Source of the DNA: a virus | Direction: 5' to 3' (one strand) | IMG/VR virus record: IMGVR_UViG_3300031885_000149 | Span: 1 to 20,374 of that record | Length of the DNA: 20,374 nt | Part shown: positions 14,613 through 20,374 of the stretch, piece after piece | Numbering within the stretch: the first letter of the stretch is position 1 | How the letters are laid out: each line of letters opens with the position of its first letter | Position numbers and translations under genes: made by a program | The notes under the pieces: generated by a model | Database searches by the model: none | What the model was told of the DNA's origin: nothing | Seen by the model: only the letters and a program-made list of their open reading frames with translations

Positions 14613-17312
14613 CTAGAACGCTGGCACGGCTGCGGTGTCGTCCAGCGAATCTTCTCCCGTCATGCTCGGTTGCCGACCCACGACTTGCGCCAGCTTGTCT
14701 CCGTCCACGTTTATTGTCACGGGTTGACCACTCATCTTTTCCAACTGCTTCGTTATGGACTGAAGCTCGGACAGGAACTGCTGTTGCATACCTTGTGAGG
14801 CCTCGGAGAACGGCAGATTCCCTTCGGCAGCAGTTCCCTTGTTTCTGGCTCTGAAATCTTCAGCAGATGTGTTTATCCAATCCTCAATGGATCGTTTCCG
14901 CGCCTCCAGATCTCCAATCTGCACGGATTCTCGAGGACGGTTCATACCCTTGCGTCGCTCTCGTGTTGCCGCGTCAGCAAGATCAGATTCCCGTTGCGCA
15001 TCCCGTTCCGCTTTGTTCGCATATACGTCTGCCAGATCGGTCGCGGCTCCCGCTGTGAAAGAGAAAGCGTTTTCGGGACTCAGCGAGTCCTTAAAGTAGT
15101 CCAATGTGTCCTGAAATTCTTTCTTTGTCCCCGTCAATCCAGACCACACTATATCTATTGGTGCCGATAAGACGTTGCGTATCAAATCCACTCCTTCGAA
15201 TATCGCCGCGAGTAGCATCTTCACCGTGTAGTAGACGCTGTCCAAAACGGTTTTCGTATCGGCGAGGAAGTAGTAGAGTTGCCTGAAAGCGTCAACAAAA
15301 GTGGCCACGCCTCCTCTGAGATCCTCTGCTGTTAGGTTGCCAATAAATGTGGCGAAATCAGATCCAAATTGAATCAGATTTTCCATCACCGATGCCGCTG
15401 TCTCGCCAAGTCGCGCCAGTTCCGATCCTGCCGCTGCGCCTTTCTCTTTCCATTGGTTCAACAGGTCGGAAGAATTCTGTGCATCGCCTCCGGTGAAAAC
15501 AGAAATGATGCTTTCCAGTTTATCTTTGAATCGACCGAATGCCGACGACTCCGACAAGGCGGCAATGCCCGACTCAAATCCCGATTTCAAACCGGTCCAA
15601 AACGATTTGAGTCGTTCGATCCACCGTTCAAAACTCTTCAGAAACTTCACGATGCCTTGGTTCTCGGCCTTGTCCAGATTCTTTTGAAGGTCTTCCGAGA
15701 ACGCCTCTCCGGTCAGTATCGACATGGCTCCCGAAGCCGCCAACCGGACCTTCTCCATGATGACCGAAATGTCCATGCCCTTGTCGCCAAACACCTTCAT
15801 GGATTTGAACAGAGCCGTAAAACCGATTCCCATCCCTGACAGAAGCATGACAATAGGAGTGCCGATGAGCAGAAGTTTCCCTATCGACACAACGAGGCCG
15901 ATTATCGATCCGCCGAGCATCCCTATCGCTCCGCTGACGAGCATGAGTCCGCCTCCTGCCACAAGTAATCCTCCTATGGCGACAACGAATTTGAACACGG
16001 TCTGCTTCGCTTCCGGTGACATCGATTGCACGAACGCGGTTATGGATGTCAGCAATTCGTATAGGACTTTAACTGCCGGTTTCAGGCTCTTTGTGAAATC
16101 TTCTCCCAACAGTGTTAGCAGGGTTTGCCAAGCCGCTCCGATGAGTTGTTTCTGTCCGCCATAGGTGTCTGCCAAGGCATCACGGAATTGCTGCGCCACA
16201 TGCGTAGAAGTGCTGAGCACTTCACCCAGGTTCTGCACACCAAGAGCCGCTTTGAGCGACGCGGTTTGCTGCTTGTCCAAAACATCGCCGTTTTGAGACA
16301 TGCTATATCTCATAGCGTTGACGGCATCTATCCCCTTCAGCGTGATCTCCCTGTTCTTCGACATTACTTTGAAGGACGCTTCGGATACCGCATTATAAGC
16401 ACCGACCCCTCGGAATCCAAAAACTACAGTTCTGATTCGCATCCGTTCCTGGTCGCTCAAATCCTTTGTCTTAACGGCCAGCTCGGCCATGATACTCAGA
16501 GCGCTGCGCATCTTTTTGGTATGCGGATCAAATACGGAGATCCCCAACTTTTGCATCTCGGCTTGACCCTGCTGATCCGTGGCCAGATTGCGGTACGCTT
16601 CCGCGAGCGCCATCGTGGCTTTCTCCGCCCCGATGTTTCTGTTTCGCATCAATCCCATATTGACGAGAATATCCGAGAAGGTTTGGTTGTAGTCTTTGGC
16701 AGTCACGGAAAGTTTGCTTATCGATCCTTCGAAATCTCGCGCCTGATATTCGGACATCTGCGTGATACGCAGCAGTTGATCCGTTACTGTTCCCGCCTGG
16801 CTCATCTCCTGGTTCATGCCATCTATTGCATCGGCAAGAACGTCTGCCGATTGAGCCAATCCGAGTTGACCCATGGAACCTGTCGTGAGATCGAGCGCGG
16901 CTCTTAACGCAATTTGCGAATCAGTTGCCCTGACTCCATTCTCCACAAGGACTCGCAGCCCTTCTATCGCTTGGTCAGGAGAAAACTCTGTGCCTATCGT
17001 GGCGGCAATGGTGGCGTCGTGGTACTTCTTCAGATCCACAGCGGTAGCTCTGCTGATTAGTCCCACGCCGATTAAACCTTTTTTGAAACTACCCGCTGCT
17101 TCGGAGGCTTGTTCTGCCAAATGGATTATTCCCAGACCTGCATGGAGCGCACCGAAACCAATCGCTGTGGCGCTGAGAGAGGCGTTGAGTCCTCCGGCCA
17201 TATTACCGGCTTTGTCTTTCAACCAGGCAAAACCGGCACCGACTTTTTTAATGACTGGTGTTGCAGCATCAGATGCCCTCAGAACAAATCCGGCTCCCAT
17301 CTCGTTCAGCAT
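14613..17312 (-). CDS. Tail tape measure protein
   Basis: This 899-residue protein is the tape measure, which fixes tail length, fills the tube lumen and usually enters the host envelope on injection. The N-terminal 350 residues have the alanine- and glycine-rich helical pattern of phage minor tail tape measures (for example FSPDQAIEGLRVLVENGVRATD, LAQSADVLADAIDGM and GAYNAVSEASFKVMSKN). Residues about 440-500 are a long hydrophobic stretch (VVAIGGLLVAGGGLMLVSGAIGMLGG and onward) that could form several membrane helices. The C-terminal third is charged and helical. Using the rough rule of 0.15 nm per residue, the tail would be about 135 nm. The start is ATG at 17312, with AAAGGCAGG upstream and a TGATG overlap with the chaperone frame. 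Several long plus-strand frames inside it are antisense shadows. Confidence 0.93.
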   Translation of the reverse strand: MLNEMGAGFVLRASDAATPVIKKVGAGFAWLKDKAGNMAGGLNASLSATAIGFGALHAGLGIIHLAEQASEAAGSFKKGLIGVGLISRATAVDLKKYHDATIAATIGTEFSPDQAIEGLRVLVENGVRATDSQIALRAALDLTTGSMGQLGLAQSADVLADAIDGMNQEMSQAGTVTDQLLRITQMSEYQARDFEGSISKLSVTAKDYNQTFSDILVNMGLMRNRNIGAEKATMALAEAYRNLATDQQGQAEMQKLGISVFDPHTKKMRSALSIMAELAVKTKDLSDQERMRIRTVVFGFRGVGAYNAVSEASFKVMSKNREITLKGIDAVNAMRYSMSQNGDVLDKQQTASLKAALGVQNLGEVLSTSTHVAQQFRDALADTYGGQKQLIGAAWQTLLTLLGEDFTKSLKPAVKVLYELLTSITAFVQSMSPEAKQTVFKFVVAIGGLLVAGGGLMLVSGAIGMLGGSIIGLVVSIGKLLLIGTPIVMLLSGMGIGFTALFKSMKVFGDKGMDISVIMEKVRLAASGAMSILTGEAFSEDLQKNLDKAENQGIVKFLKSFERWIERLKSFWTGLKSGFESGIAALSESSAFGRFKDKLESIISVFTGGDAQNSSDLLNQWKEKGAAAGSELARLGETAASVMENLIQFGSDFATFIGNLTAEDLRGGVATFVDAFRQLYYFLADTKTVLDSVYYTVKMLLAAIFEGVDLIRNVLSAPIDIVWSGLTGTKKEFQDTLDYFKDSLSPENAFSFTAGAATDLADVYANKAERDAQRESDLADAATRERRKGMNRPRESVQIGDLEARKRSIEDWINTSAEDFRARNKGTAAEGNLPFSEASQGMQQQFLSELQSITKQLEKMSGQPVTINVDGDKLAQVVGRQPSMTGEDSLDDTAAVPAF

Positions 17313-17572
17313 CAGTGCCTGCCTTTGAACGCGCCTTTCACTTCGCGCGTTCTCTCCTCTACCGCCTTCTCGAGCAAGTCTACCGCCTCATACATGCCGA
17401 GGTTCAACGTATCCATGTAACCGATTTGGAGTCCTGCGCCGAACAAAGGTAGCCATGCCAGATTGAATCTCAATGTCCTAATGTCCTCCTCGCTCAATCC
17501 TCCGATTGGGGCGCACCACTCCGAATCTCCTTCCTCTTCGCCTGCGCTCTGCCAGGCGAGAAAATTCCGTCG
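17312..17572 (-). CDS. -1 frameshift extension of the tail assembly chaperone (gpGT-like)
   Basis: The -1 frame continues for 86 residues after the slip site, from RRNFLAWQSAGEEE to the TGA at 17314-17312. A fusion of zero-frame residues 1-250 with this extension would be 336 residues. The extension is acidic then helical (LSEEDIRTLRFNLAWLPLF, then YMDTLNLGMYEAVDLLEKAVEERTREVKGA), resembling the T part of G-T chaperones that contacts the tape measure. The -1 frame stays open back to at least 17737, but the TTG there has no visible support. An ATG at 17620 with GGAG five nt upstream could give an independent 102-residue protein, so internal initiation is the alternative to frameshifting. The stop overlaps the tape measure ATG by one base (TGATG). 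Confidence 0.8.
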   Translation of the reverse strand, partial: RRNFLAWQSAGEEEGDSEWCAPIGGLSEEDIRTLRFNLAWLPLFGAGLQIGYMDTLNLGMYEAVDLLEKAVEERTREVKGAFKGRH

Positions 17573-18321
17573 AAAGGGAGGTCGATTGCGAACACGTTTC
17601 GGCACAGAGAACGGGGACATTCGATCTCCACCTCTGTGTCTATACCGCAGTCCGCCTCCACAAATGCGGCACGAAGATCCTCGGCTTCGTCGCTCGTCAA
17701 TCCTTCGTGCGGTCCTTTGCCGAGCCCGTCGAGCCAATTCATCAGGTCTTTGGAATCTATCCCGTCCACCTTTGCGATGCGCGTCCTCAAGCTACACGCC
17801 ATCTCACGGCCTGGAAATTGCCGCTCCAACTTCTCTTGGAACTCGGCGTCCTTCACCATCTGAAGATTGAAATGGACCATCTGGCCTGCGATCTCGACGC
17901 TCATTGGCTTGCCTGCAAGAAACGCATCGAACGAAGGCTTAGGTATCGTCTTCAGAGCGAGATCGGTATCCAGATTGACCGCCCAAGTGAACTTATGGTT
18001 GCAGACTCGGCTGGGGCATTTGATGTTGATGTCATATTGCGCACCTTCTCTATATGACAACTTACGGAGTCCCAGCATGGCGGCCAGCATGTCTCCGGCC
18101 AGCATGTCTTTCCACTTGATCTCGCCTCCTATCGCGGCCCAGGAATACGGTCCTGTCTCAACGAAACCCTCGCTGCACATCGATACGATCTCCACCAGTA
18201 CCTTGTCCTGCGCGGCCCTGCGCGAGCGCGATGCCGATGCCAGATGATTCTCTTCCTTCACCATGAGTTGCCTCATGGCTACGATTGCTCCGGACGGTAA
18301 TGGGATATTCTGACGCCTCAT
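17494..18321 (-). CDS. Tail assembly chaperone, zero-frame product (T4 gp26-like / gpG-like position)
   Basis: This 275-residue protein sits between tube and tape measure, the position of lambda-G-type tail assembly chaperones that bind the tape measure before tube polymerisation. The sequence also recalls the T4 gp26-type baseplate family found at this position in other phages; that family assignment is tentative. Two similar cysteine knuckles are visible, C102-PSRV-C107 and C235-PRSL-C240. Each follows an I-x-CP pattern and has F three or four residues after the second Cys, so the four cysteines could bind one zinc ion. The start is ATG at 18321 with AAGGAGG five nt upstream. A CCCTTTC slip site at codons 249-250 can divert ribosomes into the -1 frame; otherwise translation ends at TGA 17496-17494. 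Confidence 0.85.
   Translation of the reverse strand: MRRQNIPLPSGAIVAMRQLMVKEENHLASASRSRRAAQDKVLVEIVSMCSEGFVETGPYSWAAIGGEIKWKDMLAGDMLAAMLGLRKLSYREGAQYDINIKCPSRVCNHKFTWAVNLDTDLALKTIPKPSFDAFLAGKPMSVEIAGQMVHFNLQMVKDAEFQEKLERQFPGREMACSLRTRIAKVDGIDSKDLMNWLDGLGKGPHEGLTSDEAEDLRAAFVEADCGIDTEVEIECPRSLCRNVFAIDLPFDGIFSPGRAQAKRKEIRSGAPQSED
17538..17559 (-). promoter_or_regulatory. Stem-loop downstream of the slip site
   Basis: Twelve nt after the heptamer the minus strand has TCGCCTG (17559-17553), an 8-nt loop (17552-17545) and CAGGCGA (17544-17538), a perfect 7-bp stem. Frameshift-stimulating structures are often 5-9 nt from the slip site, so this spacing is slightly long. The stimulatory role is inferred. 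Confidence 0.6.
17572..17578 (-). promoter_or_regulatory. Slippery heptamer C CCT TTC for programmed -1 frameshift
   Basis: The minus strand reads CTC CCT TTC GAC in the chaperone frame, giving the canonical X XXY YYZ form with X=C, Y=T, Z=C. After a one-base backward slip the tRNAs re-pair with CCC (Pro) and TTT (Phe), so amino acids and pairing are preserved. The -1 frame then continues CGA CGG AAT TTT, which is exactly the downstream open frame. Confidence 0.8.
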
Positions 18322-18345
18322 GGAATCCTCCTTGCCTATTCTGTT

Positions 18346-18365
18346 TCAATCCCTCGCGGGACCGA
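18346..18365 (-). other. GNRA-capped hairpin, CRISPR-repeat-like
   Basis: On the minus strand TCGGTCCC pairs with GGGATTGA around a GCGA loop, which is a GNRA tetraloop. Eight pairs form, two of them G-U. It abuts the long hairpin, sharing 18364-18365, so the two could stack. The 3' side continues as GGGATTGAAAC (18353-18343). A short stem followed by ATTGAAAC resembles the 3' half of many CRISPR repeats and the crRNA 5' handle. There is one copy only and no array. Confidence 0.45.
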
Positions 18366-18399
18366 CCGGCAGGAATGCGGTTATCGCACCCTGCCGATC
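18364..18399 (-). other. Long hairpin, 15 pairs, in the tube-chaperone spacer
   Basis: On the minus strand the arm GATCGGCAGG (18399-18390) pairs with CCTGCCGGTC (18373-18364). Inside it, GTGCG (18389-18385) pairs with CGCAT (18379-18375) across an ATAAC loop (18384-18380), with one bulged base at 18374. Two of the 15 pairs are G-U in the minus-strand RNA and would be A-C mismatches in the plus-strand RNA. The structure therefore belongs to the transcript of the tail operon. No T-run follows. Confidence 0.7.
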
Positions 18400-18414
18400 A
18401 TTGCCTATGCCCAA

Positions 18415-18427
18415 GCCGCTAAGCGGC
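18415..18427 (-). other. Small hairpin immediately after the tube stop codon
   Basis: The minus strand reads GCCGC-TTA-GCGGC, a perfect 5-bp GC-rich stem with a 3-nt loop, beginning six nt after the TAA stop of the tube gene. It is followed by TTGGGC rather than a T-run, so termination is doubtful. It could protect the 3' end of a processed tube mRNA. Confidence 0.55.
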
Positions 18428-18433
18428 ATTCGA

Positions 18434-18889
18434 TTATGACGGAACCTGCTCGAAATAATCGAACTTCACGATCACCGATTCTACCCGGACTTCGTCCGCG
18501 TTGTTGTCCCAGTCGCCTGCCGAGAACTTGCGGCAGTAGCACTTAAAGCAACGGAACCGCTTCAACTCCTCGCCTGCGCGGTCGAGTTGAACGATGTCCA
18601 TGGTGCGGAACAGGTCAGGCGGAACCATGCCTGTCCCGGCTGCCGCGTCGTATGTATCGCGGAACCAGTTGTAGAGGTCGTAATCGTTACACGCTCCTCT
18701 GACTAGCGTTGCCTCGGTGAAGGTGACTCTACCCGGAGCGTTGTGCGGGTGGAGCCTCCCTCCCTCGTTGTATTCGATATTGGCGGCCTCGGCAGCGATC
18801 TCGCTACAGCTTTGGAACGCGGCACGAGCCACGCCATCTATCTCCACGACGAAGGAGAACTTCTTATCCCAATTGGTAGGTGTTCCCAT
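18434..18889 (-). CDS. Tail tube protein (T4 gp19-like)
   Basis: This 151-residue protein is the likely inner tube subunit, which stacks as rings inside the sheath to form the DNA conduit. Its length is close to that of T4 gp19 and related tube proteins. The N-terminus (NWDKKFSFVVEIDGVARAAFQSCSEI) and the LYNWFRDTYDAAAG segment fit the gp19/Afp1 tube family, in which a beta-strand core carries a helix in the middle. The C-terminal part has an unusual CFKCYC cysteine cluster. An AAGGAGG Shine-Dalgarno site at 18895-18901, five nt before the ATG, suggests strong translation, as expected for a major structural protein. The stop is TAA at 18436-18434, followed immediately by the structured spacer. 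Confidence 0.93.
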   Translation of the reverse strand: MGTPTNWDKKFSFVVEIDGVARAAFQSCSEIAAEAANIEYNEGGRLHPHNAPGRVTFTEATLVRGACNDYDLYNWFRDTYDAAAGTGMVPPDLFRTMDIVQLDRAGEELKRFRCFKCYCRKFSAGDWDNNADEVRVESVIVKFDYFEQVPS

Positions 18890-18901
18890 CGTTTCCTCCT
18901 T

Positions 18902-20374
18902 CTACGCTGCCAGGCTCTCCTCGAGTGCCCTGGTGTCTTGGGTGATGAGCAGGATGATCCAGTCGGTCGGTTTGTTGGTCGCAAGCCCGACCCTGATAGT
19001 CATGATCCCTGCAAATTCGTTTGCTACTGGATTCAAATTGTCGCTGACGTCTACGAAAAACGCTGTCTCCGGATTCGTCGACCTGAACGCTCCTTTCCCC
19101 ATCTCTCCGACAAGGAACTGCTTTATGGAGCGACCTGCGCGTTGCCTGTTGGTCCGGTTGTTGAACCGGTGCCGGAAGATTTGGAGTCCTTCCTTCAGCG
19201 ACTCCGCGATGAATATCACTCCGCGTCTCTCGCCGATGGACGGGAAATTGCCCGTCGACTTCAGGGTCCGGCTGCCGTCGATGTACCACAGTCCGCCTGT
19301 GGTTTTGTTGAACGGATTGATCCGGTACGGGTAGACGTAATCGCGCGTCTTCTCATCCAGGACTTCGTGTTGGGACTTGCCTCCTGGATCGTCTTCGACG
19401 CCCATCATTCCCCGAATGACTCCCCATCCCTCGCCATAACCAGCAGGCGCTTCGTACACTCCGCCGAGCTTCTGGTCGTTCGCCGCGCACTTGCCAGCGA
19501 TCCAGCCGGACGGAGGAACAGTGATGGTGTCAACGTCGCCGTACACTTCCGGAGCCGGATTCGCCACTTTGATTCTCGGCCAGTGAATCGCTGCAAATTC
19601 CGAATATTCAAAAATACCGTACCCGGTCAGCGTGGAAACGATGTTCGTCTTGTTCAGACCTGCGGCACAGTCGAGGAAGCAGAACATGGAACCGTTCCTG
19701 TCGAGTTCCGCGTAGTCCATCATGCCTTTATAAATCGCCTCGGTCGACATGCCCGGAACTATCAAGATTCTGCCTGTGTTGATTCGGTCGAAGGTGTAGA
19801 GTCCGGTAGGGCCAGCCACGTTGCCTATGTAGTCAGAATCCGCTATGCCCGCGAGTCCGTCTCCGCCACCAGTCATGTTGGCACTGACTACGTTCACGGG
19901 ACGTTTGTTGAGCAATGGAGTCAAGCCTGCGTCGACTACCGCGATCAATCTCGATCCCAGGTTTTCGTTGTTTACCAACGACTCCACATAGTTTGCGCTG
20001 GTTTCATCCATGTTGAGATTGGGCCATGTTTCCTTGACGATTCCGCTGTCCAGCACTTTCAAGTTGAAACTCTCAGCCTGGCCATTTGTTGCCGCTTCGA
20101 TTGCGATTTTGAGATCGTCGGAATAGGTTCCGGGGTACTTGCCGTAGCAAGTCAGTGTCGTCTCGGCTACTGCGTCTTCGCCGATGTGCTCATCGTTGTC
20201 GAAGCCAAAATCGTAATCCGACGTACCGAGCACTTGCACCATATAGGCTGCCCCTGGCGTATTGTACCGCATCGTGAGTTGATTGCTGGCGACGGTCACT
20301 CCCAAATCCACGCCCAGTGCCTCTATCAAAACTTCCATTTCGAGCGCAGTTACACTGCGTATGTTGCCAACCTC
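18902..20374 (-). CDS. Contractile tail sheath protein, 5' end truncated by window edge
   Basis: This is the tail sheath, the protein that polymerises around the tail tube and contracts to drive it into the cell. About 490 residues lie in the window. The middle has the sheath signature (a PGTYSDDLKIAIEA-type stretch, then E-TWPNLNMD), and the C-terminal part matches the conserved sheath region: GLWYIDGSRTL, GERRGVIFIAESLKEGLQ, RFNNRTNRQRAGRSIKQFL, and an ending IRVGLATNKPTDWIILLITQ. The frame stays open without a stop from the ATG at 20338 to the window edge, and that ATG has no Shine-Dalgarno sequence. I therefore infer that the true start lies upstream and that the sheath N-terminus is missing here. 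The stop is TAG at 18904-18902. The tube gene follows 12 nt later, the usual sheath-tube pairing. Confidence 0.95.
   Translation of the reverse strand, partial: EVGNIRSVTALEMEVLIEALGVDLGVTVASNQLTMRYNTPGAAYMVQVLGTSDYDFGFDNDEHIGEDAVAETTLTCYGKYPGTYSDDLKIAIEAATNGQAESFNLKVLDSGIVKETWPNLNMDETSANYVESLVNNENLGSRLIAVVDAGLTPLLNKRPVNVVSANMTGGGDGLAGIADSDYIGNVAGPTGLYTFDRINTGRILIVPGMSTEAIYKGMMDYAELDRNGSMFCFLDCAAGLNKTNIVSTLTGYGIFEYSEFAAIHWPRIKVANPAPEVYGDVDTITVPPSGWIAGKCAANDQKLGGVYEAPAGYGEGWGVIRGMMGVEDDPGGKSQHEVLDEKTRDYVYPYRINPFNKTTGGLWYIDGSRTLKSTGNFPSIGERRGVIFIAESLKEGLQIFRHRFNNRTNRQRAGRSIKQFLVGEMGKGAFRSTNPETAFFVDVSDNLNPVANEFAGIMTIRVGLATNKPTDWIILLITQDTRALEESLAA

Follow-up and report, generated by a model that had tools for sequence, protein, structure and literature searches.

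The stretch of DNA analysed here (the window, 20,374 bases in full) is a linear virus record of an uncultured virus of bacteria. Its minus strand carries a contractile tail module made up of a sheath gene, a gp19-type tube gene, a gene for a 275-residue protein, a −1 frame, a tape measure gene and more baseplate genes. The sheath gene (18902–20338, minus strand) has matches to PHROG tail sheath families and, by tblastn, to the sheaths of Streptomyces phage BRock, Bacillus phage SP-15 and others, and the tail tube gene of the T4 gp19 type (18434–18889, minus strand) matches PF06841 (E-value, 1.8 × 10−25) and phrog_4542. It is followed on the same strand by a structured leader RNA (18322–18426) that ends at the Shine-Dalgarno sequence of the next gene, whose zero frame (17494–18321, minus strand) encodes the 275-residue protein, a putative short tail assembly chaperone (TAC-N). 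The tape measure gene (14613–17312, minus strand) was assigned by PF10145 (E-value, 8.8 × 10−22) and PHROG tape measure matches. The chaperone locus with its extension is thus located between the tail tube and tape measure genes. On the plus strand, a 544-codon open frame (18743–20374) lies antisense to the sheath gene and runs off the end of the window; it is probably an effect of base composition.

Read directly on the minus strand, the chaperone gene contains the heptamer CCCTTTC at 17578–17572, with its first C at codon position 3, which gives the phase C CCT TTC. The X XXY YYZ heptamer of the canonical bacterial −1 signal is therefore present in phase, and C CCT TTT or C CCT TTA is found in relatives. 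Twelve nucleotides past the heptamer, TCGCCTG (17559–17553) pairs perfectly with CAGGCGA (17544–17538). The −1 frame that would be entered by a slip (17572–17312, minus strand) comprises 86 codons and ends in ...CAC TGA TG over the tape measure ATG at 17312. The unshifted product has 275 residues, and the predicted fusion has 336 (250 + 86). An ATG is also present at 17620, with GGAG five nucleotides upstream. All of these elements had been described in an earlier sequence-only reading, and each was confirmed. In-phase XXXYYYZ heptamers are not rare in the window (13 in the 6,663 codons of its genes), so that a heptamer in a single genome is by itself weak evidence; this one gains its significance from conservation, as each of the 18 tabulated records retains it in phase.

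Conservation of the heptamer and of the −1 frame

A scan of viral contigs with the single protein returned only a spurious polymerase match (L002). Relatives were found in IMG/VR by a scan with the sheath and by scans with the chaperone and extension alignments, together with one MAG contig (L028), which is binned as Candidatus Bipolaricaulis. The resulting 18 records include the window and some near-duplicates (L003 of L011, and L047 of L046), and L044 is close to L045. In 18 out of 18 records, CCCTTT followed by C, T or A is found in the same phase and at the aligned position, 82–157 nt before the zero-frame stop, while the identity of the short protein to that of the window falls to about 27% (L026).

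Two zero-frame codons that form the slip site are frozen at synonymous positions. In an alignment of 11 genomes, 27 fully conserved columns have four- or six-fold degenerate codons, and only at Leu248 (CTC) and Pro249 (CCT) is a single codon used throughout; the mean codon identity over all same-residue pairs is 0.33. With 15 genomes, the codons of Leu248 and Pro249 are identical in 105 of 105 pairs, although such pair counts are not strictly independent, and the remaining columns average 0.30, with Ala133 (45 pairs) as one further codon-invariant column. Common descent is unlikely to account for the frozen codons, given how low the overall identity is at these sites. The −1 frame is also free of stops between the heptamer and the zero-frame stop in 12 genomes (none found, versus 0.6–2.8 expected per genome by synonymous shuffling), and the extension is conserved as a protein, with 39–59% identity to the same segment in ten relatives and no conserved start codon. 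The sequence-only reading had proposed to look in related phages for a heptamer and overlap kept while other codons drift, and this is what was found in all 18 records. The opposite pattern, which it had named as speaking against a frameshift, is a kept in-frame start with a degraded heptamer; in the relatives, starts are not conserved and the heptamer is.

The heptamer might be retained without any slipping if both frames encoded conserved residues at this point. The −1 frame does read Pro-Phe here, and both residues are invariant in alignment A4. However, in half of the records a stop 3–21 nt before the heptamer leaves nothing translatable in the −1 frame ahead of it, conservation falls immediately past CTCCCTTT, and L026 retains CCCTTT (as CCCTTTA) even though its zero-frame residues have changed from LPF to IPL. 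Such a dual-coding constraint is considered extremely unlikely.

The same stops bear on the alternative offered by the sequence-only reading, i.e., that internal initiation at ATG 17620 makes the second frame a gene in its own right, from which a free T-like protein would be made. The ATG and its Shine-Dalgarno-like GGAG are present in the window, an ATG at the same position (−42) is found in L005 and L020, and a GTG in L008, L011 and L003. The codon arises, however, from a conserved Glu-Cys codon pair (GAA TGT/GAG TGC), and elsewhere this position has ATG, GTG or no start at all. In nine of the 18 records (L009, L007, L004, L028, L026, L044, L046, L047 and L048), a stop interrupts the −1 frame 3–21 nt ahead of the heptamer, and the stretch in between lacks ATG, GTG and TTG; these stops fall between the position of ATG 17620 and the heptamer, and there is no start upstream. 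Moreover, no start codon precedes the conserved PLFG motif in L007, L046 and L047, so internal initiation cannot make the PLFG domain in these phages. An internal start would also leave the frozen CTC CCT codons unexplained, and this route to the second protein is very unlikely.

Alternatively, translation of the second frame could be coupled to that of the first at a TTG overlapping the zero-frame TGA (GGAGGATTGA), in which case only the conserved C-terminal domain would be made. GGAGG or GGAGGA stands directly before this TTG in the window, L004, L003 and L011, but a normal Shine-Dalgarno interaction needs more than the roughly one base that separates the two. The codon is CTG in L009, L008, L005 and L028, TTA in L007 and CTA in L020 and L022, so it is a Leu codon rather than a start that is conserved. 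Coupled initiation, which also does not account for the heptamer, is exceedingly improbable, and both candidate starts were rejected on the basis of conservation.

Proposed synthesis of a short and a long chaperone

A −1 frameshift best explains the gene anatomy, the conserved heptamer with its synonymously frozen codons, the conservation of −1 coding and the lack of usable starts in several relatives, and on this comparative sequence evidence it is highly probable that one gene yields tail assembly chaperones of two lengths, one short and one long. The candidate frameshift of the sequence-only reading, with the same two products, is in this respect supported by the comparison across 18 records. 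The occurrence and efficiency of the slip, the function as chaperones and any contribution of the hairpin past the heptamer are inferred from comparison and analogy. Most ribosomes would read the 275 codons and produce the short chaperone, TAC-N. A minority would pause at C CCT TTC, where tRNA-Pro and tRNA-Phe would slip together one base back onto CCC and TTT. The tRNAs expected for CCU and UUC usually read CCC and UUU too, so re-pairing after the slip should be near-perfect. The slipped ribosomes would then translate 86 further codons up to the TGA over the tape measure start, to yield a long chaperone of 336 residues, TAC-NC. If the two products act as gpG and gpGT of lambda do, the segment shared by both would cover the tape measure protein, and tube subunits would be brought in by the rare extension.

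The 7-bp hairpin (17538–17559, minus strand), a possible stimulator, is strong in the window: the 45 nt downstream of the heptamer fold more stably than any other 45-nt segment of the gene (z = −2.65). Among relatives, z for this fold ranges from −2.45 (L005) to +0.95, and the fold is weak or absent in L007, L020, L026 and L028. RNAalifold revealed no common structure downstream of the heptamer among relatives, and at the positions of the stem 51% of cells pair, compared to 48% in shuffles, with no covariation. The perfect pairing described in the sequence-only reading thus holds for the window and is not shared by the relatives. The hairpin may help slippage in the window genome; judged by the alignments, the conserved signal does not include it.

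The strategy of making two products by frameshifting is classical in tailed phages, and the less usual parts here are the family context and the shift site. The open-access papers searched contained no description of CCCUUUC as a −1 site of phage tail genes; for a fungal virus, CCC_UUU_C has been proposed in one paper as a +1 shift site. With its relatives, the window offers a clean comparative case for this shift site, in a putative chaperone family whose members are annotated as baseplate hub proteins.

Protein family and related systems

The short protein of the window matches PF12322 (T4_baseplate) with an E-value of 3.9 × 10−5 and 23.9 bits (cut-off, 24.5), and 11 out of 13 aligned members are matched by this family at E ≤ 0.01, with 2.4 × 10−17 as the best value. 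A match to phrog_150 (baseplate hub) was obtained as well. The predicted fold of the short chaperone (pLDDT 85) resembles the baseplate hub subunit of SP-15 (E-value, 2.8 × 10−15) and T4-like baseplate hub (assembly) proteins. The first-ranked PDB fold match, the HK97 tail assembly chaperone 2OB9, was non-significant (E-value, 2.2; probability, 0.25), and the structure of the −1 extension was predicted poorly (pLDDT 62). Direct profile comparison with the single sequences of gp26 and gp51, which we take to be the chaperone pair of T4, gave no match (hhalign probability, 0.3% and below), and the T4 link therefore rests on PF12322 and the predicted folds. On these sequence and fold matches, the short chaperone is a member of the T4 gp26 'baseplate' family PF12322 and not of the lambda G family.

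The label of a G/GT-type system, given by the sequence-only reading, consequently fits in gene position and logic and not in the N-terminal protein family. The window phage is contractile, its N-terminal protein is of the T4 gp26 family, and the heptamer of its lineage is C CCU UUC/U/A, whereas the slippery heptamer of lambda is G GGA AAG. T4 has separate, divergent genes 26 and 51, and the window has one gene and a −1 frame. In lambda (Xu, Hendrix, Duda 2004, as described in PMC5009743), the gpG/gpGT locus likewise lies between tube and tape measure genes, and a short and a rarer long product share their N-terminal part, as is predicted for the window. The short protein of the window shares its Pfam family, PF12322, with gp26 of T4, whose chaperones are the subject of Vladimirov, Gautam and Davidson (2022), as cited in PMC10885494 and PMC12846349. 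In PMC10885494, which cites Vladimirov 2022, some T4-like phages are described as having a short gene and a longer fusion gene in place of frameshifting. Pakpunavirus Adele and the Andersonviridae (PMC12846349) provide another parallel, i.e., a myophage chaperone with a −1 frameshift proposed in silico from an open −1 frame and a conserved site, as in the window; the shift site there is a GTTTTT motif, unlike CCCTTTC.

A tblastn search of the phage collection with the short protein gave no match, and distant PF12322-like phages were reached by bridging searches through L024 and L026. These were SP-15, LIS04, vB_SagM-GXN1, two huge uncultured phages and Streptomyces phages, in which the tape measure gene, where annotated, follows the short frame. 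In Bacillus phage SP-15, Listeria phage LIS04 and Streptomyces phages BRock and LuckySocke, the order of sheath, tube, PF12322-like protein, short frame and tape measure is the same as in the window, and the PF12322-like protein is annotated as 'baseplate hub' or hypothetical. The second frame overlaps in +1 in SP-15, LIS04, GXN1, LR756508, BRock, LuckySocke and L027, so any shift in SP-15, LIS04, BRock and LuckySocke would be +1; the overlaps of these four phages and of GXN1 are regarded as candidate +1 frameshifts. The +1 frame was seen to run to near the tape measure gene in L030:2600–2930 (SP-15), L031, L032, L014:14600–14920 (BRock) and L035:2650–2950. NCC_CGA_TT recurs at the gene ends of SP-15, LIS04 and GXN1, and CTC_TAA/TGA in BRock and LuckySocke. 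In LR756511.1 (L034:2600–2880), from a huge uncultured phage, the overlap is in −1, and the PF12322-like gene has at its end a different slippery sequence in phase, T TTT TTC.

It is tentatively proposed, with rather less than even confidence, that the gp26-family 'baseplate hub' proteins are chaperones whose long form would be made by a −1 shift at CCCUUUY in the window lineage, by −1 at UUUUUUC in the huge phage, by +1 in SP-15-like and BRock-like phages and from separate genes in T4, with a new leader RNA that would set chaperone output in the window lineage. For the T4 members of the family, frameshifting has reportedly been replaced by separate genes. With −1, +1 and separate genes mixed in one family, the evolution of recoding would become testable. 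Annotation pipelines would split such a long chaperone or lose its second half, and this is apparently the case in SP-15 and LIS04. The +1 second frame carries no annotation in LIS04, and in SP-15, BRock and LuckySocke it is annotated as a short hypothetical gene.

Leader RNA upstream of the chaperone gene

The leader with its two covarying hairpins is located directly upstream of the chaperone start and is common to 10 genomes (e.g., L009:7834–7941 and L028:973–1077). Matches to the model R1 have E-values of 1 × 10−14 to 1 × 10−21; R1 was built from nine of the ten leader sequences, so the scores of those nine are high by construction. In the alignment, 88.9% of cells are paired, and nine pairs are changed on both sides, compared to 3.8 in shuffles (0 of 500). 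Only one significant copy is found per record, even in records of 95–100 kb, with one weak extra match (E-value, 0.6). The leader has no match in Rfam, and R1 has none in the more distant L022, L024, L026 and L044–L048. One copy of (A)TAGGCAA lies on either side of the hairpin pair, and the second copy abuts the Shine-Dalgarno sequence. Perhaps the leader RNA controls the output of the chaperone relative to that of the tube.

The element GATTGAAAC upstream of the chaperone gene was considered as a CRISPR-like repeat and rejected, as the relatives show it to be the edge of a variable hairpin; the exact 24-mer is absent from other viral contigs. In L024, the chaperone gene is preceded by a different stable leader, also of two hairpins (L024:2950–3064; z = −3.26), which is similar in layout and is unmatched by R1.
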